A DNA stretch of 64,000 bases, taken from the NCBI RefSeq assembly GCF_900156865.1, contig NZ_LT732529.1, positions 4,264,613-4,328,612 on the forward strand, read 5' to 3'. Origin of the DNA: Litchfieldia sinesaloumensis. Its GTDB lineage: Bacteria > Bacillota > Bacilli > Bacillales > Bacillaceae_L. Below are positions 12,661 through 22,138 of this stretch, piece by piece. Numbering within the stretch: the first letter of the stretch is position 1; every line of letters begins with the position of its first letter. The notes beneath the pieces are model-generated. The model was given only the letters and a program-made list of their open reading frames with translations, searched no databases and was not told the origin of the DNA. The translations under genes and the position numbers were made by a program.

Positions 12661-13176
12661 ATGAGTGATGTAAAATTAAGGCCATTAGAACGAGTGGACT
12701 TAGGATTTGTCCACAAATTAAATATTAATGCAAACATCATGTCTTATTGGTTTGAGGAGCCATATGAGTCATTTGTAGAATTACAGGATTTATATGATAA
12801 ACATATTCACGATCAGGGTGAACGAAGATTTATTGTGCAAAAAGGCGATGAAATGGTAGGACTGGTAGAATTAGTAGAGATAGATTATATCCATCGTCGG
12901 GTTGAATTCCAAATTATTATTGATCCAAATCACCAAGGACATGGATATGCCAAGTCTGCAACATACTTAGCAATGGACTATGCGTTTTCCGTTTTAAATA
13001 TGTATAAACTGTATTTAATCGTTGATAAAACCAATGAAAAGGCGATACACATTTATCAAAAACTTGGTTTTCAGTTTGAAGGAGAACTAATCGATGAATT
13101 TTTCGTTGGTGGCGAATATCATAATGCAATAAGAATGTGTATGTTCCAACATCAGTATTTTAGTAGGGATTCTTGA
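12661..13176 (+). CDS. speG: Spermidine N1-acetyltransferase
   Basis: A 171-residue GNAT acetyltransferase that matches E. coli-type SpeG closely over its whole length: [50 protein letters not shown], and [19 protein letters not shown] near the C-terminus. The acetyl-CoA loop is HQGHGYA. It acetylates spermidine or spermine, relieving polyamine stress. I choose ATG 12661 because GGAGG ends nine bases before it; the ATG at 12652 overlaps that site. It is a single gene followed by a repeat array. High similarity to a Gram-negative protein makes transfer possible, but SpeG is also known in Bacillus. Confidence 0.94.
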
Positions 13177-13236
13177 GGCTTATTAGAAAAACACGTTTAA
13201 AAAATAAATGCCCTATCGTTAGATTATGCGCAGTAG

Positions 13237-13657
13237 CACCAAATCTGGTAAAAGCATGCATAACCTACATTTGCGCATGCTTTAATAGCACTTTTACTTT
13301 AAAACCATTTGCAAATGGATAAACATTCCAAATAATGTCACTTTTGGACCTGTATTTACCTGATATTGGAACTTTCGCATGAAATAATGGCACCCAATCT
13401 AGTAAAAGCATGCATAACCTACATTTGCGCATGCTTTAATAGCAATTTTACTTTAAAACCATGCGCAAATGGATAAGTATTCCAAATAATGTCGCGTTTG
13501 GACCTATATTTACCTAATATTGGAACATTCGCATGAAATAGTGGCACCCAATCTAGTAAAAGCATGCATAACCTACATTTTCGCATACTTTAATAGTATT
13601 TTAACTTTAAAACCATTTGTAAATGGATAAACATTCCAAATAATGCCGCATTTGGAC
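13237..13657. repeat. Array A1: ~154-bp tandem repeats (2.7 copies)
   Basis: Three tandem units start at 13237, 13391 and 13545, exactly 154 bp apart; the third is cut at ~13657. Each contains a hairpin with AAAGCATGC facing GCATGCTTT (perfect in the first two units), then a palindrome of the type CCATTTGCAAATGG, and a GGAAC..TCGCATG segment. Copies differ by scattered substitutions. No coding frame is conserved. Related units form arrays at 20518 and 35659 (see findings). The array sits in the space downstream of both speG and the ABC ATPase gene. Confidence 0.9.
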
Positions 13658-13683
13658 AGAATAGAAAGACTACCTACTATAAA

Positions 13684-13724
13684 GGCCTATTCCTCCTGCG
13701 TGATATATGCAGATGGAATAGGCC
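13684..13724 (-). terminator. Terminator of the ABC ATPase gene
   Basis: GGCCTATTCC (13684-13693) pairs perfectly with GGAATAGGCC (13715-13724), eight bases beyond the stop of the minus-strand ATPase gene. Confidence 0.6.
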
Positions 13725-13731
13725 ACGTTAA

Positions 13732-15453
13732 TTATGCTAATACGAAATGTCCAGGTTTTACTTCCTGTAATGTCTCTTGACTGAAATCAAAACTGGGCAA
13801 TTCCGACATTTCTTGCTTCAGTTTATTTCTCTCGATTGCAGGGTCCGGAACTGGGACTGTTGCTAGCAGTGATTTTGTGTAAGGATGGAGCGGATTGCCA
13901 TAAAGTTCTTCACTTTCGGCAAGTTCAATAATCTTACCTGCATTCATAACGGCCACTCTGTCACTGATATGCTTCACCATCGATAGATCATGGGCGATAA
14001 ATAAGTAGGTTAACCCCAGTTTTTTCTGTAAGTCTTTTAATAGGTCCACGATTTGTGCTTGCATGGATACATCCAGCGCAGATAACGGTTCATCACAAAC
14101 AATGAATTTTGGATTTACGGCAAGAGCCCGGGCGATACCAATTCGTTGGCGCTGACCACCTGAAAATTCATGTGGGAATCGTTGTGCATGTTCTTTTTCC
14201 AGGCCGACAAGCTCTAATAACTCCTCAACGCGAGCCTTCCGTTCTGCCTTGTTTTTCACCAATTTGTGAATATCTAAGGAATGTCCGATAATATCTAGAA
14301 CCTTCATGCGCGGATTAAGTGATGCATATGGATCTTGGAAGATAATCTGGATTTCCCTGCGAAGTTGCTTTAATTCTTTCTTATTTAGTCGATTGATCGC
14401 AATACCCTTATAGAGGATTTCTCCTTCGGTTGCATCTTGCAAGCGTAACAACAGCCTTCCGGTGGTCGATTTTCCAGAGCCTGATTCACCAACGAGGCCC
14501 AGGGTTTCGCCCGGTTGAATCGAAAAGCTAATAGAATCGACAGCTTTTAACGTTCTACCTCCGCCTAATGGATAGATCTGCTTTAATTTTCGTACCTCAA
14601 GTAAGGGGCGATCTGGATTAATATCTTCTGGTAAATCGAGTTGACCCTTCGGTTGTTTCTTTTCATCTAACCGAGGTAAGGCATTTAATAGTTTTTTTGT
14701 ATAAGGATGTTGAGGTGAGGAGAATATCTTCTCTGTTGTATTGGTCTCAACGACTTCTCCCTTTTTCATGACAACAACCCGGTCACACATTCCTGCAACA
14801 ACCCCTAGATCATGAGTGATTAAGATGATGGAAGTGCCGAACTGCTTTTGTATTTTCTTCATCAAACGTAAGATTTGTGCCTGAATTGTTACATCAAGTG
14901 CTGTTGTTGGTTCATCTGCAATCAATAACTTCGGTCGACACGCAAGTGCCATGGCAATCATAGCTCGCTGTCTCATACCTCCTGAAAACTCATGAGGGTA
15001 TTGATTGTACCGTTCTTCTGGGTTTTTAATTCCGACCAGTTGCAGCATTTCGATGGACTGTTGCTTAGCATCTTTTGATGATAGACCTTGATGCTTAATT
15101 AAGACTTCGTCGATTTGTTTTCCGACCTTAATGGTTGGATTTAATGAGGACATGGGGTCCTGGAAAATCATACTAATCTCTTTTCCGCGAACTTTCTCCA
15201 TTTCGTTATCAGTAAAAGAAGAAATCTGTTTACCGTCAAATTCAATAGAACCTTCTTTCATTAATGCTGGGGGGGACGGTAACAGCTTCATAATCGATCG
15301 AGCCGTAACGCTTTTCCCAGAACCAGACTCTCCAACTATACCAAGTGTCTCCCCTTTGCGAACGTCGAAGGTAACGCCTTTGACAGCTTCGAAATCTTCA
15401 TTATTAGATAGGAAAGATATATGCAAATTGTTGACTGTAAGTAATTTTTCCAT
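13732..15453 (-). CDS. Peptide-type ABC transporter ATPase, DppD-DppF fusion
   Basis: A 573-residue protein with two complete ABC ATPase domains in one chain. The first Walker A is GESGSGKS at residues 41-48, with signature SGGMRQR; the second Walker A ([12 protein letters not shown]) is near residue 320, with signature SGGQRQR. Each also has a Walker B and switch histidine ([32 protein letters not shown]). Both halves carry the oligopeptide-type C-terminal tail ([11 protein letters not shown]). It energises import of peptides or nickel-type substrates. It is transcribed divergently from the permease and binding-protein genes starting at 15610; the shared 156-bp region probably holds both promoters. 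Fused ATPases of this type occur elsewhere (e.g. GsiA). Confidence 0.93.
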
Positions 15454-15609
15454 TGTGAAGTGCCTCTTTTTCTAGTAATTATATATATGAATTTTTTTAA
15501 GTTGACATGTAAATGCTTTATCAATATACTTTTATACTGTTACAGGTTTTAATATACACTAAAACAATCGGAATTATCAAGATTTATAATCTCCTAGGGG
15601 GGTGAGTAT

Positions 15610-17040
15610 TTGCTTTCTGAACAGGATCGTACAAAAGAACAAATAGATTCTAGATTTGCAAAATACTATCGTATTATTCGTTCACAGCCTTTATTGCATT
15701 TTTTCTTTATACTACTTGGGCTTCCTGTTCATTTGGTTACTTGGATTTATTACCAATTTAAATCTACTAACTCGTCTTATAAGCAATTACTCCAAAAAGA
15801 GACAGAAGCGATTCAACACTCTGCTACATACGGCGAATGGATTGAGCGTTACGAAGACCAATATAAAAGTAAAAAGCGATATTTCAATGAACCGTTAAAT
15901 GAGCAAGAGATGCATCGTGAGGCTAGGGAGCTTGCAGATGAACAGGCTGAAGACTTGGCTAAAGCTAGAATGATAGATAGTAACATTAAAGAATCGACCT
16001 ATCAACAATTCTTTGAAGGGTGTTTAAATAAGCCTTCCTTTATTAGGGTTAGTTTTATACCAGGTATCCTCATGTATTTGTTCTTATGGATTTATTCCAA
16101 ATATATTCTACGATATATATTCGAGCGCTTACTGATGACGATCTTCGTGATTGTATCGGTAGCATTCTTTGTTTTTACAATTTTGCACTTTTCACCATCG
16201 GATCCAGCTGCAAACATTCTAGGGGAAGCAGCTACGATGGAACAGCGAGAGGAATTTAATCGCCAATACGGTCTCGATAGGCCGTATATCGTACAGCTTA
16301 CGGATGCAATAAAAGGGATCCTAACCTTCGATTTAGGGTTTTCCTATACAGGTAATGAGAACATTGCCGAAAGCATAGCGAATAAGTTTCCTATTACGTT
16401 GTTAATTGCCGTATTATCCTTGTTGATGGCTATCATTATAGCGATTCCAGTTGGTATTATATCGGCAGCAAAGCGTAATTCCATTTGGGATTACAGTTTT
16501 ATGTTTATCGCCCTAATCGGGTTATCGATACCAAATTTCTGGCAGGGATTAGTATTTATTTTAAACTTCTCTATTAAATGGCATTTGTTACCGGCGACCT
16601 ATTCACCAAAAGACTGGCTCTCCATTATTATGCCGGTTATTGTACTCGGAACAGGTTTGACGGCATCGATTGCTCGGATGACACGTTCATCCATTCTTGA
16701 GGTAATCAATGAGGATTACATTGTGACAGCGAAGGCCAAGGGATTGAAGCCTAGAAAGATTTTAATCCAGCATGCTTTAAGGAATGCGATGATTCCAATT
16801 ATTACTGTGATCGGCTTACAGTTTGGCGGAATGCTTGGTGGTGCCGCAGTTACGGAGAAGGTCTTCAATATAAGCGGATTAGGAAGCTATATAGTGGATA
16901 AGCAATTTGTACCTGATATTCCATCAATCTTGGCCGGAGTGGTCTATATCGCAATTACAATTTCTCTTGTAAACCTTGTGGTTGATATAATTTACGCATT
17001 ATTGAATCCGAGAATTCGTTCTCAAATGAAAAGTTCTTAA
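15610..17040 (+). CDS. Peptide-type ABC permease (DppB-like) with long N-terminal extension
   Basis: A 476-residue inner-membrane permease starting at TTG with AGGGGGGTGAG upstream. The last ~310 residues are a normal DppB/OppB permease: FERLLMTIFVIVSVAFFVF at the start, NRQYGLDRPYIVQ, and the coupling helix region EDYIVTAKAKGLKPRKIL. Ahead of it lies a ~160-residue extension not found in DppB: a membrane segment at ~28-48, a charged soluble stretch with EQEMHREARELADEQAED, then another hydrophobic stretch at ~150-165. It pairs with the extended DppC-like protein next door (12 bp to its ATG). The extension may contact the binding protein; that is inference. Confidence 0.9.
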   Translation: MLSEQDRTKEQIDSRFAKYYRIIRSQPLLHFFFILLGLPVHLVTWIYYQFKSTNSSYKQLLQKETEAIQHSATYGEWIERYEDQYKSKKRYFNEPLNEQEMHREARELADEQAEDLAKARMIDSNIKESTYQQFFEGCLNKPSFIRVSFIPGILMYLFLWIYSKYILRYIFERLLMTIFVIVSVAFFVFTILHFSPSDPAANILGEAATMEQREEFNRQYGLDRPYIVQLTDAIKGILTFDLGFSYTGNENIAESIANKFPITLLIAVLSLLMAIIIAIPVGIISAAKRNSIWDYSFMFIALIGLSIPNFWQGLVFILNFSIKWHLLPATYSPKDWLSIIMPVIVLGTGLTASIARMTRSSILEVINEDYIVTAKAKGLKPRKILIQHALRNAMIPIITVIGLQFGGMLGGAAVTEKVFNISGLGSYIVDKQFVPDIPSILAGVVYIAITISLVNLVVDIIYALLNPRIRSQMKSS

Positions 17041-17052
17041 GAGGTGAATGAA

Positions 17053-18546
17053 ATGACGCCACAACAGGAGTTTACACTAAAACAATCACAAGATTATAAG
17101 AATGCTAATTTCTCTCTGAGTCTTTCATTCGTATTAACGTTGATATTTGCTTTCAACGCCTATGATTTTTCACAAGGGATTTGGAGTGTAGCATGGGTAA
17201 TTGTATCGGCTGCTTATTTTGTTACAACCATATGGCAAGGTCTCATTGCTCTTCTTCTCAGAAAGGATTTAGTAACCTTCGGGGCTGTTCAGAAGCGCAC
17301 AAGACTCTTGAGTGCTGTTCAAATACTCAGCATTTTTGTCGGGAATATCTTTACCGCGACATTTGCGTTTCGAATGTTAAAAAAGAAGGACTCGATTGAG
17401 TACACGTTTGCCTATTATATGTTTCTTACGCATTTTCTGGTTTTTGCCATTTCACTGTTCAATTTGTTTAAACCATATGTTTCGAATAGTTTCGTGATTA
17501 CGATGACACTATTACTAGTCGCGATGGTCATAGAGTTCATCCTGATCATCATCCTTGCTAGAACTGATTTAGAAAAGGGTGTAAAACCACTTTTTAAATG
17601 GTTTGGTATTATCGTATTTTTGATTGGACTAACAGGTAACTTTTTTGGTTTAATACTTGGCTATAGTTTGGTAATGAAGTCAGTAAGCAGTGATGGATCC
17701 ACCATTGATAAATGGAATAAATTTTGGTTGAGCATGGCCAATAATTTTACTGCTATGCTTGGGTTTTTATTCGTGTTTTTAATGTTTGCGATCTCAATTG
17801 TTAGTTACGGAACCTTTGTTGGTACCTTTGCTACAGACAATGCCTATGATTCACTCCTTTTAGAACCAAGCTTGGCACATCCTTTTGGCACCGATAATTT
17901 TGGTAGAGATGTCTTTACTCGAATTATTTTTGGAGCAAGGATTTCCTTGATTGTGGGTCTATTGACAACAGTAATCCCATTAGTAATTGGTGGATTTCTA
18001 GGTGCCATCTCTGGTTATTATCAAAAAGCGGTTGATAATATTATTATGAGATTGCTAGATGTGCTGTACGCTGTGCCAGGGATTCTTTTAGCGATTGCGA
18101 TTATAGCCGCATTTGGATCAAGTACGTTTAATTTAATTATCGCATTAAGTGTTGGTTCTATTCCGACCTATGCGAGAACGATGCGGGCAAATGTCTTGAT
18201 GGTTTCAAACTTGGAATTTGTTGAAGCAGCCAAAGCGTTAGGAGAAAAAGAATGGAAAATAATCTTTAAACAGATTGTTCCCAATGCCTTTGCTCCGATG
18301 ATAGTTAAAGCTTCGTTAACAATTGGTACGGCAGTTATTGCGACAAGTTCATTAAGTTTCTTAGGCTTGGGTGTGGAACCACATATTCCTGAATGGGGCA
18401 ATATACTAAAAATCGGAAGTATGTATCTAGAAACCAACCCATACTTAGCGATTTTTCCTGGTATCGCGATTATTCTATTGGTTCTCTCCTTTAACTTCCT
18501 GGGGGATGGTTTACGGGATGCGCTAGATCCAAAATTAGATTCATAG
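17053..18546 (+). CDS. Peptide-type ABC permease (DppC-like) with extra membrane segments
   Basis: A 497-residue permease. ATG 17053 is chosen because GAGGTG lies six bases before it. The C-terminal ~240 residues are a standard DppC: HPFGTDNFGRDVFTRIIFGA and the coupling segment EAAKALGEKEWKII, ending FNFLGDGLRDALDPKL. Ordinary DppC proteins are ~290-300 residues with one segment before this motif. Here about 280 residues precede it, with six to seven hydrophobic stretches. The insertion replaces the usual short N-terminus and makes this a much larger membrane protein. It is co-transcribed with the DppB-like gene and the binding-protein gene. Confidence 0.9.
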   Translation: MTPQQEFTLKQSQDYKNANFSLSLSFVLTLIFAFNAYDFSQGIWSVAWVIVSAAYFVTTIWQGLIALLLRKDLVTFGAVQKRTRLLSAVQILSIFVGNIFTATFAFRMLKKKDSIEYTFAYYMFLTHFLVFAISLFNLFKPYVSNSFVITMTLLLVAMVIEFILIIILARTDLEKGVKPLFKWFGIIVFLIGLTGNFFGLILGYSLVMKSVSSDGSTIDKWNKFWLSMANNFTAMLGFLFVFLMFAISIVSYGTFVGTFATDNAYDSLLLEPSLAHPFGTDNFGRDVFTRIIFGARISLIVGLLTTVIPLVIGGFLGAISGYYQKAVDNIIMRLLDVLYAVPGILLAIAIIAAFGSSTFNLIIALSVGSIPTYARTMRANVLMVSNLEFVEAAKALGEKEWKIIFKQIVPNAFAPMIVKASLTIGTAVIATSSLSFLGLGVEPHIPEWGNILKIGSMYLETNPYLAIFPGIAIILLVLSFNFLGDGLRDALDPKLDS

Positions 18547-18593
18547 TTTTTACTTTTAAATAACAATACAAAACGAAATGAGGTTCAATACTA

Positions 18594-20384
18594 ATGAAGA
18601 AATTAGGTTTTCTACTACTAGCACTTATGCTGCTTTTAACAGGCTGTCTTCAAACTGAATCAGATGTAAGTGATGATGCTAAATCAGATTCAAAAGGGGA
18701 AGCACCAACGATTGAAATTTTAGGAATGGCAACAAGCGAAGATGATATGAACATTTTACGTGACCAGTTAACAAAAAGTGGTTTCAGTGTAAAATTAAAT
18801 ATCCAACCAGATTACGGCAGCTTTACTGCACAAAAAGAAGCGGGTAATTTTGATCTAGCAGTAAGTAGCTGGACAACTGTTACGGGTAACCCAGATTACG
18901 CCGTTCGTTCCTTATTTACTTCTGACGGTGATAATAGCTTATTCGCTGATGAAAAAGTGGATGAATTAGTTGAAAAAGCAGCTACTCAATTACCAGAAGA
19001 ATACCAAGAAACATACAAAGAATTAGAACAACACGTTGTTTTAGATAATGCCTATATTGTACCGCTATTTACTTCCTATAAAGCGCAAGCTGTTAACGAA
19101 CAATTGATAGATGAATCAACTGTTCGTCTACCAAAATCAAGAGCGGCAGTGTGGGAAAAATATGATTTCAAAGATCAATCAAAACGTGATAGTGAGGCGT
19201 TGATTGTACATCAGGCTATTGGCTCGTTAACTTCTTTAGACCCAATCAAAGGTAATGATGGTTCAATCAATACATTAAATACAAATATGTATGTACGTTT
19301 AGTAAACCTAACTGATGATGACCAAGTAGTATCCGATGGTTCTCTTTCTCTAAATCATGCGATTGCTGAAGGAAGCGAAGACTACTACTTCTTACTTCGT
19401 GATGATATTAATTTCGCGGCTGTAAGTGATAATAAAGCAGTTGATACGGGTGAACGTGTTGGAGCAGAAGATGTTGTCTTTTCTCTAAACCGTGCAAAGG
19501 ATTCAAAATCTGTTCCTGACCACCGTACATTCAGTCTGCATGAAAACATGGAAGAAATCTCGATCGTGACTGATGCAAGCGAGCTTGATGGAAAAACGGC
19601 AGATGGCAAAACAATTCGTGAAGCACTAGAAGATGGAATTGGCCAAGAAATCTCTCAATTAGTATCAGATAAAACAAAAGCAGATAACAATTCTGGTGTG
19701 TATCAGGTTGTGAAAGTAACAACTGTGAACCCATTCCCACAGGTATTGAATTATTTAGCTCACCAATCTGCTGGTATCGTTTCACAAAAACAAGTGGAAA
19801 GCATCAATACGTATGATGTAGCAAGCTTTGATATTAATAAAGATATCCCTTATGGAGATCAACGAACTGTAACAGAAGGGGCAAGCTACGATAATCATCT
19901 ATATGCGAGTGGCCCATATATCTTAACTTCTAAAAATGATTATGAAGCACATTTTGTTAAAAACCCTGCTTATATGGCTGGAACCGAAAATGAACCGAAC
20001 ATCTCTGAAGTTGTTGTGAAGTTCATCCAAGATTCAGACAGTGCTTTATCTGCATTACGTAACGGAGAAATTCATATTTTAAATGGTGTACCTGAAACAA
20101 AATATGATCTTGTAAACGAAGATGAAAAATTAACACTTCAACAAAACAAGAGTAATGGAGTTTCTTACCTTGCATTCAATATGAATGGCCGTGAAGTGTC
20201 AGAAAGCGCAGCATTACGTAAGGCAATTCTTTATTCTGTGAACCAAGAGGAATTCATTACGTTCTACCAAGGTAACAAAATGAAGGCTGTTTCAACAGTA
20301 AGTCCTCTAGTTAACACAGGTTTAGAAGTTGTTGCCGATAGTGCAAAAGCAAAAGAATTTTTGAATGAGTATTTGAGTAAATAA
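18594..20384 (+). CDS. Peptide-type solute-binding lipoprotein with apparently circularly permuted halves
   Basis: A 596-residue lipoprotein (lipobox LLTGC, Cys18). In SBP_bac_5 proteins (DppA/OppA) the order is: N-terminal LDP region, AEDV-F-S motif, G-PY motif, LR-A-Y motif, AK-LL, then a C-terminal part with FD-W-PD and Y-LEQ. Here the C-terminal part comes first: residues ~37-195 hold GNFDLAVSSWTTVTGNPDY and YKELEQHVVLDNAYIVPLF. The N-terminal part follows: LTSLDP (~210), GAEDVVFSLNRAKDS (~290), YASGPYILTSKNDYEAHFV (~440), LRKAILYSVNQEEF (~540), and the chain stops after AKEFLNEYLSK. Function should still be substrate capture for the ABC permeases just upstream. The permutation is my reading of family motifs. 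Confidence 0.88.
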   Translation: MKKLGFLLLALMLLLTGCLQTESDVSDDAKSDSKGEAPTIEILGMATSEDDMNILRDQLTKSGFSVKLNIQPDYGSFTAQKEAGNFDLAVSSWTTVTGNPDYAVRSLFTSDGDNSLFADEKVDELVEKAATQLPEEYQETYKELEQHVVLDNAYIVPLFTSYKAQAVNEQLIDESTVRLPKSRAAVWEKYDFKDQSKRDSEALIVHQAIGSLTSLDPIKGNDGSINTLNTNMYVRLVNLTDDDQVVSDGSLSLNHAIAEGSEDYYFLLRDDINFAAVSDNKAVDTGERVGAEDVVFSLNRAKDSKSVPDHRTFSLHENMEEISIVTDASELDGKTADGKTIREALEDGIGQEISQLVSDKTKADNNSGVYQVVKVTTVNPFPQVLNYLAHQSAGIVSQKQVESINTYDVASFDINKDIPYGDQRTVTEGASYDNHLYASGPYILTSKNDYEAHFVKNPAYMAGTENEPNISEVVVKFIQDSDSALSALRNGEIHILNGVPETKYDLVNEDEKLTLQQNKSNGVSYLAFNMNGREVSESAALRKAILYSVNQEEFITFYQGNKMKAVSTVSPLVNTGLEVVADSAKAKEFLNEYLSK

Positions 20385-20401
20385 GTTAGGTTAAAATGAT
20401 G

Positions 20402-20446
20402 AAGTGCCCGTCTCTTGTGTGGTTTGAATAAGAGGCGGGCACTTTT
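20402..20446 (+). terminator. Terminator of the permease/binding-protein operon
   Basis: AAGTGCCCGTCTCTT (20402-20416) pairs with AAGAGGCGGGCACTT (20430-20444), with one mismatch, and is followed by TTGT. Confidence 0.85.
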
Positions 20447-20517
20447 GTGGTTTAGACATGTGGTAAGGGGCGCGTGGCTTTATATTGGATGTTAATCATT
20501 TGAGCGTGTGCTTAATG

Positions 20518-20990
20518 CATGCGAATGTTGGTTATGCGCATGGTTTTAACACATTTTTCTTTTAAAAAGATGTAGAAATGGAAAATAATAAGATTTTTGA
20601 TCAATGTGTAGGCCATATTTTCCAAGTCCTGGAACTAGCGCGTGCGGAATTACCAACCGACCCATCGAAAGCATGCGAATAGTGGATTTGCGCATGGTTT
20701 TAACACTTTTTTCTTTTAAAAAGATGTGAAAGTGGAAAATAATAACTTTTTTTGATCAATGTTGAGGCTATGTTTTCCAAGTCCTGGAACTTGCGCATGC
20801 GGAAATACCAACCGACCCATCGAAAGCATGCGAATAGTGGATTTGCGCATGGTTTTAACACTTTTTTCTTTTAAAAAGATGTGAAAGTGGAAAAAAATAA
20901 CATTTTTGATCAATGTGTAGGCCGTATTTTCCAAGTCCTGGAACTAGCGCATGCAAAGTTACCATCCGACCCATCAAGTACATGCGAATG
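20518..20990. repeat. Array A2: ~154-bp tandem repeats (3 copies plus fragment)
   Basis: GCATGCG-type unit starts occur at 20518, 20671, 20826 and (degenerate) 20980, spaced 153, 155 and 154 bp. Each full unit holds CATGCG facing CGCATG around ~13 bases, then GGTTTTAACAC, TTTTAAAAAGATG, and CCAAGTCCTGGAACT. The sequence differs from array A1, but order of elements and unit length agree. Apparent minus-strand frames across it repeat the same peptide and are by-products of the repeat. It lies between the transporter operon terminator and the dihydrouridine synthase gene. Confidence 0.9.
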
Positions 20991-21175
20991 TTTCGTTTAA
21001 TCTCAAAAATATCTCGGAACAAAACTGGATGACCTATTATAAAATCCAATCTGGTGAAAATAAACAGTTTCAATCTGTTTGATAAAAAGTGTGGAATCAT
21101 GATATAAGTGTAAAAGATGATATTTTGGGAGTAGGTGTAACCTAGCATCCCATAATGAGAGGATTTGAATGAAAG

Positions 21176-22138
21176 ATGAACGAAAATTTCTGGCGTGAAT
21201 TACCACGGCCATTTTTTATACTAGCACCCATGGAAGACGTGACAGATGTTGTCTTTCGGCATGTCGTTAGTAAAGCGGCGAGACCAGATGTGTTTTTTAC
21301 GGAGTTTACAAACACGGACAGTTACTGTCATCCAGAAGGACAGCAAAGTGTACGAGGACGTTTGACGTTTACAGAAGATGAACAACCTATTGTGGCACAT
21401 ATATGGGGCGATAAACCTGAACACTTCCGGAAAATGAGTATCGGTATGGCTGAACAAGGTTTTCGGGGTATCGATATCAATATGGGCTGTCCTGTAGATA
21501 ATGTGATTGAGGATGGAAAAGGATGCGGACTGATTCGTCGTCCAGAGGTTGCAGCTGAATTAATCCAAGCAGCAAAAGCAGGTGGATTGCCTGTAAGTGT
21601 GAAAACAAGGCTTGGTTTCGCAGAAGTTGACGAATGGCGTGACTGGCTCACACACATATTGAAACAAGACATTGTTAATTTATCGATTCATTTGCGTACA
21701 AGAGAGGAAATGAGCAAAGTGGATGCTCATTGGGAATTGATACCGGAGATCAAGAAACTTCGTGATGAGGTGGCCCCAAATACTCTTTTAACGATTAATG
21801 GCGATATTCCTGATCACCAAACGGGTATGAAGCTCGCTCAACAATACGGTGTGGATGGAATTATGATAGGGCGAGGGATTTTTAAAAACCCGTTTGCCTT
21901 TGAGAAGGAACCAAGAGAACATAGCAGTGAGGAATTGCTTGAACTTCTGCGATTGCATCTTGATCTTTTTGACGAGTATGCACATTTGCAGTCACGTTCT
22001 TTGGGACAACTTCGTCGCTTTTTTAAGATTTATGTTAAGGGATTTCGAGGGGCAAGTGAGTTAAGAAACCAGTTGATGAGCGCAAAGTCAACGGATGCAG
22101 TGCGCGAATTACTAGATGAGTTTCAGTCGGAGTCTTGA
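21176..22138 (+). CDS. tRNA-dihydrouridine synthase
   Basis: A 320-residue FMN-dependent Dus-family TIM barrel. Visible signatures are [18 protein letters not shown] at the N-terminus, [19 protein letters not shown] at ~residues 100-118 (the Cys after the glycine is in the position of the catalytic acid region), VSVKTRLGF, and [16 protein letters not shown] near the FMN phosphate site. It reduces uridine in tRNA D-loops using NADPH. The start at 21176 is preceded by AGAGGA 12 bases away. It looks like the second Dus type found in many Firmicutes rather than the DusB in the folate/pab cluster. It is monocistronic. Confidence 0.92.

Follow-up and report, generated by a model that had tools for sequence, protein, structure and literature searches.

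Sequence analysis identifies a naturally permuted cluster C binding protein in a probable GisABCD-type importer cassette

Results

The lipoprotein gene studied here lies in the window (the whole 64,000-nucleotide stretch of Litchfieldia sinesaloumensis DNA that was analysed), and its product, judged from its sequence, is a natural circular permutation of a cluster C substrate-binding protein (SBP), a member of a large and well-studied family of nutrient receptors. Taken as a whole, the explanation we prefer and consider probable is that the protein would be the SBP of a GisABCD-type importer, derived from the cluster C family by a single permutation and taking a thiol peptide as GisD does. Natural, widespread permutants of cluster C binding proteins have apparently not been described so far: no natural SBP_bac_5 permutant was recognised in the literature at the level of titles and abstract openings, with most subscription journals outside the scope of the search, and the string 'permut' is absent from the main texts of PMC10355420, PMC12510641 and PMC5020093, their supplements not included. 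Within these limits, the statement in a preliminary description of this DNA that no permuted class C SBP was known to its author can stand. Circular permutants made in the laboratory for biosensors, as far as the accessible parts of that literature go, share the permuted order but are engineered, whereas the window protein is natural. A natural permutant would offer a ready test of the roles that the termini and the position of the lipid anchor play in ABC importers.

The family blocks occur once each, in inverted order

The gene and the parts of its product are as follows.

18594-20384, plus strand: permuted SBP_bac_5 lipoprotein gene (GisD-type), an intact open reading frame with an ATG start, 596 amino acids
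18594-18647, plus strand: lipoprotein signal peptide including the lipobox cysteine Cys18 (LTGC), from sequence and alignment
18702-19178, plus strand: block that ends a normal SBP, here first (residues 37-195; PF00496 positions 299-367 and the C-terminal part), from profiles and alignment
19140-19199, plus strand: segment in which the former C-terminus is fused to the former mature N-terminus (residues ~183-202), from alignment and model
19191-20381, plus strand: block that begins a normal SBP, here last (residues 200-596; PF00496 positions 19-275), from profiles and alignment

Searching the window protein with the Pfam profile PF00496 (hmmscan) produces two stretches in inverted order, with residues 264-592 aligning to profile positions 19-275 and residues 46-114 to positions 299-367. 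The whole protein scores 136.9 bits against a gathering score of 32.4, which meets the test for membership in SBP_bac_5 (cluster C); scored separately, one half reaches 112.6 bits and the other 31.2 bits, slightly short of the gathering score. The collinear PF00496 block order is not met, making the protein a permuted variant of the family, and the collinear fit that would have refuted the preliminary description did not appear. A phmmer search of PDB chains showed the inversion as well, for instance in the match to 5u4o, in which residues 428-558 of the query align to 190-317 of the chain and residues 53-158 to 380-489.

The block order was analysed further with a profile of 13 SBPs in normal order (GsiB, DppA, NikA and OppA of E. 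coli and nine from the fetched loci), against which the window protein was rotated with every residue tried as the start. In its native order the protein matches in two pieces, HMM 37-356 (114.0 bits) and HMM 380-512 (55.1 bits), whereas the mature sequence, once residue 181 or 182 is made its first, gives a single collinear piece covering HMM 38-512 with 174.2 bits; the comparison of native and rotated order proposed in the preliminary description is thereby settled in favour of the rotated one, here with our own profile. The twelve best starts all fall between residues 177 and 193 (173.7-174.2 bits). For GsiB and DppA, used as controls and rotated in steps of ten, the unrotated order has the top score, and of 200 letter-shuffled sequences 141 were reported, with a top score of 2.4 bits. 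Together with the inverted PF00496 stretches, the single rotated piece bears out the claims that the N- and C-terminal halves are swapped behind a normal lipoprotein signal and that the presence of each block once means a permutation. As all family blocks are single-copy and the rotated protein forms one piece, truncation and a simple fusion of two genes are excluded.

The predicted structure retains the cluster C fold

A model of the native sequence (AlphaFold2, 29 alignment rows) has a mean pLDDT of 85.6 and a pTM of 0.81, and the only runs with pLDDT below 50 are residues 1-9 and 11-33. The fusion segment has mean pLDDT values of 76 for residues 181-190 and 95 for residues 191-200, and no internal signal peptide was found where the former C-terminal region joins the former mature N-terminus. 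The top PDB match in Foldseek is E. coli YliB, that is GsiB (1uqw; E 9.7e-14, prob 1.00), with NikZ and then DppA following at prob 1.00, and 104 PDB chains match the model with E values up to 0.001. TM by target lies between 0.30 and 0.54 among the 50 best rows; because Foldseek alignments follow sequence order, each covers only part of the permuted fold. According to the model, the window protein is still a protein of the two-lobed cluster C fold, and the absence of the family fold that would have spoken against the preliminary description was not observed. GsiB, the closest match by structure, and DppA, matched by sequence as well as structure, both differ from the window protein in having the normal block order. 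Folded alone (165 residues), the front block was modelled poorly with a mean pLDDT of 61, which we count against our preferred explanation; no fold search was made from this model.

When the proteins are aligned together, the native C-terminus (…SAKAKEFLNEYLSK) falls opposite DppA …AKALLKEAGLEK370, and 371GFSIDLW is matched by the native start (APTIEILG), which places the cut point just behind the AKxLLxEAG helix in a loop that tolerates insertions. Longer stretches occur at this point in the normal SBPs NikA, L002, L004 and L094, in agreement with the earlier proposal that the new termini lie in a loop. This loop is presumably on the C-lobe. Under our preferred explanation the family underwent one old circular permutation, which, as the sequences show, joined the old C- and N-termini and opened new ones after the AKxLLxEAG helix. 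Most plausibly, we infer, the gene was duplicated in tandem, the copies fused and their outer halves were lost, with the front signal peptide kept. The permuted SBP would then be tethered through Cys18, which is invariant in the 29-row alignment, ahead of the former C-terminal block.

The cassette has the layout of gisABCD

The SBP gene (D) is the last in a four-gene cassette consisting of a divergent A followed by B, C and D.

13732-15453, minus strand: GisA-type fused double ATPase (two ABC_tran stretches and oligo_HPY), divergent
15610-17040, plus strand: GisB-type permease, 476 amino acids, BPD_transp_1 at residues 278-470
15610-16104, plus strand: N-terminal extension of permease B, residues 1-165; every class-sample genome where it was detected also has the permuted SBP
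17044-18546, plus strand: GisC-type permease, 500 amino acids, BPD_transp_1 at residues 316-498
17044-17703, plus strand: N-terminal extension of permease C, residues 1-220, with six extra hydrophobic segments (hydropathy scan)

The same layout (A minus; B, C and D plus) is found in 99 of the 102 loci with D, not de-duplicated, the exceptions being L093 and L166, where D stands alone, and L106, which lacks A. After de-duplication, B, C and the ATPase are each present in 97/98 loci, and no ORF cluster beyond A-D is common to more than 19/98 (L093, L094 and duplicate loci were left out of this count). In L106 (G1133:C12), the distance of B and C from D exceeds the usual one by about 2 kb, pointing to an insert between C and D, and A was not found in the stretch.

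A divergent gisA next to gisBCD, with ggt following, is the published S. aureus layout. The S. aureus GisABCD-Ggt system (SAUSA300_0200-0204; PMC10355420) resembles the window in its cassette, gene directions and permuted order (the last from OR845000, L190), as well as in its lipoprotein SBP, fused double ATPase and longer-than-usual permeases. The window meets two marks of GisD, the divergent gisA beside gisBCD and the permuted order of the staphylococcal protein: L090-L092 align end to end with P0001, and OR845000 matches residues 35-592 of the window protein in one piece. L190 (OR845000.1), which carries the whole cassette and ggt, comes from a record that gives S. aureus as the host, and L090-L092 were called staphylococcal by similarity. 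OR845000.1 and OR849883.1 are unannotated records named Staphylococcus phages, both with a GisD match, and probably represent host chromosome in a phage assembly.

By gene layout, the window protein belongs to the GisD family of GisABCD-Ggt, with no letter-by-letter comparison with SAUSA300_0203. Since the layout is that of gisABCD-ggt, a glutathione importer, the permuted type very probably works in S. aureus, again with the SAUSA300_0203 sequence uncompared, and would there serve sulfur nutrition according to the available part of PMC10355420. Placing the window protein with GisD allows a function to be proposed. In the sections of the two papers open to us, gis and ggt mutants grow poorly on GSH or GSSG as sulfur source (Lensmire et al. 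2023, PMC10355420), and analysis of a gisD mutant indicates that growth at 250 µM GSH or less depends on Gis (2025, PMC12510641). The window importer therefore likely takes up glutathione or gamma-glutamyl peptides; binding and uptake are inferred by analogy, the genetic evidence coming from S. aureus only. By the example of S. aureus GisD, the ligand of the permuted SBP would be a small thiol peptide, and most likely either glutathione, reduced or as the disulfide, or a gamma-glutamyl peptide akin to it. As is general for the ABC importer family, the SBP would hand this ligand over to the B/C permease, which the fused double ATPase would power.

An alternative we regard as possible, if unlikely, accepts the same permuted SBP and cassette and assigns glutathione to the staphylococci only, with the Bacillales substrate being another di- or tripeptide, a metal-metallophore or an opine-like compound. 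It is favoured by the identity of only 37-41% between the window protein and the three aligned staphylococcal members, which counts against the link to GisD, and by the distribution of ggt, which directly follows the cassette in four staphylococcal loci (L090, L091, L092 and L190) and was found beside it nowhere else among the 103 loci searched, so that this mark of GisD is missing in the window. The only PF01019 match in the window's genome, L191 (G000:C3:3298487-3299971), lies away from the cassette; by eye it has no evident signal peptide and may be a Ggt of the cytoplasmic kind reported for S. aureus. Further points for a different substrate are the best-scoring model for permease B, Opp2B 'nickel ABC transporter permease' with 284 bits, and the listing of SAUSA300_0203 as a nickel/peptide SBP in PMC5020093. 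They are opposed by permease C, which scores best with GsiD of E. coli, by the ATPase, for which GsiA is the second-best full-length model, and by the constancy of the layout of what is one cassette, although none of the matches of A, B or C reaches the model cut-off apart from generic ATPase ones. NCBIfam models likewise gave no match at cut-off on the window protein, a failure that the permutation may help to explain.

The residues of the binding site do not decide between glutathione and other substrates. In DppA, R383 and D436 hold the ends of the dipeptide, according to the accessible part of PMC12136057; at the equivalent positions the permuted SBPs have a gap (29/29) and Val (29/29), so theirs is not a DppA-like dipeptide site. 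GsiB, with Ser at both positions, also lacks these residues, and since both are missing in 8/13 of the normal SBPs too, their absence is not specific to glutathione. The organisation of the E. coli systems differs from the window as well: gsiA is in an operon with gsiBCD whereas A is divergent in the window, and DppD and DppF are separate genes in contrast to the fused window ATPase.

Extended permeases accompany the permuted SBP

The window permeases are much longer than E. coli GsiC and GsiD (306 and 303 amino acids by their genes, against 476 and 500). In permease B, about 100 polar residues lie between two extra hydrophobic segments, and the membrane side of the extension was left undecided by charge, with 17.7 K+R against 15.3 D+E averaged over 98 sequences. 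For GisB and GisC, the part of PMC10355420 available gives nine segments each. Residues 1-165 of permease B were matched in 31/396 genomes of the class sample, and all 31 are among the 35/398 with a D match (Fisher p about 4e-42, with no correction for descent or operon linkage). The D-match genomes lacking an extension match are three taken for staphylococci and one fragment genome (G1101); staphylococcal B is also long (448 amino acids in L090) though unmatched by the query. Across the loci, the query matched 92/103 at 1e-5, missing the staphylococcal loci, L093, L094 and L166, and also L095, L096 and L179, the last three of which have long B frames.

These counts support co-inheritance of the permuted SBP and the extended permease, which would have been passed on together; as the genes share one operon, their co-occurrence is no proof of a mechanical link. 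The earlier suggestion that a relocated anchor fits the extended permeases is thus upheld in so far as all class-sample genomes with the extension also have permuted D, while the fit itself remains unproven. A tentative hypothesis, which we would not expect to hold, is that the permutation is an adaptation in which a shift of the anchor to the C-lobe side, away from the N-lobe, re-orients the SBP, with the B and C extensions providing a matching docking surface and an SBP-permease geometry unlike that of Dpp or Opp. If it were true, all GisABCD systems, that of S. aureus among them, would represent a sub-type of peptide importer that is new in structure.

The permuted family is widespread in Bacilli and forms one clade

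Permuted order was found in 121 of the 124 distinct homologues drawn from 155 loci, confirming the expectation of the preliminary description that other genomes would have the same order; 120 passed the permuted-order rule and L083, whose piece starts one profile column before the threshold, was added by eye. The three exceptions, L093, L058 and L157, are all broken or partial, and L094 and L063 have no D. In L093 (G1101:C11), no more of the permuted SBP than about 212 residues at its C-terminal end is left as an open frame. L157 (Sporosarcina aquimarina) is interrupted near residue 50 by a single in-frame stop, either genuine or due to a sequencing error, and is otherwise collinear with the query over 17-593. 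L058 (NZ_CP077929.1, an S. aureus plasmid record, 3677-13457) is a broken copy with a gisD piece in one open frame and the same ATPase protein listed twice.

Full-length collinear relatives are present in 3/9 genomes of the genus sample, 3/17 of the family sample and 24/397 of the order sample. The phylum sample has collinear relatives in 4/398 genomes, the window's own included, and a fifth match that is a normal SBP. In the genome samples examined, the permuted family is confined to Bacilli. The named GTDB collection added 299 confirmed stretches out of 331, the best 80 of which include Oceanobacillus, Sporosarcina, Psychrobacillus, Lederbergia, Cytobacillus, Rossellomorea, Paenibacillus, Lysinibacillus and other genera; the closest named relative among the matches listed is F. 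onubensis (Fredinandcohnia) with 89%. The 2023 paper, in its accessible part, describes complete GisABCD-Ggt systems as confined to the S. aureus cluster (PMC10355420), and the cassette is now known far beyond that Staphylococcus clade, there without an adjacent ggt. A contig titled Arthrobacter beigongshangensis (L146) carries a 70% identical copy and is probably a misnamed or contaminated record.

In a tree of 29 permuted and 13 normal SBPs, the permuted proteins group together in a single clade (support 0.915, branch length 1.36), which fits a single permutation event. Trees of the separate halves have the same nearest normals, L010, L015 and L001; the clade of the shorter half has a support of only 0.196, and with 13 normals the parent sub-family is unresolved. 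These trees bear on the possibility that half genes of two SBP paralogues were fused, instead of one protein being permuted. Because tandem fusion and trimming are the probable route of the permutation, two parents are conceivable in principle, but the single-copy blocks, the one rotated piece over HMM 38-512 and the three normals shared by both halves, weakly supported as the shorter half is, render such an origin very improbable beside the permutation of one protein. An assembly or gene-calling artefact in one genome, for which we found no evidence, can be set aside given the uninterrupted permuted order in 121/124 distinct homologues from many genera.

The flanks of the cassette

The region between the divergent A and B contains a conserved element.

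15558-15576, plus strand: conserved A-B intergenic element with a GGAAT core, consensus TAAAnTATACTATACnnATCGGAATnATGCAATT over 41/98 intergenic regions, regulator unidentified

Its TCGGAAT motif, found in 41/98 A-B intergenic regions, has a density of 2.1 per kb there versus 0.21 per kb in the loci overall. We take the GGAAT half to resemble CymR boxes. When two mismatches at most were allowed, a motif search of the window's own genome did not rise above noise (74 matches against 103 for the reversed control), and CymR control of the cassette is for this reason not claimed. Two of the three other one-mismatch sites have no ORF of at least 80 amino acids starting within 250 bases downstream and one has an unidentified 102-amino-acid ORF. 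An Rfam search of positions 13000-21200 gave no known RNA at E up to 1. On the 3' side of the SBP gene, before a dus-like gene, positions 20514-20989 consist of about three head-to-tail copies of a ~155-bp repeat, with one 155-nt copy pair being 94% identical.
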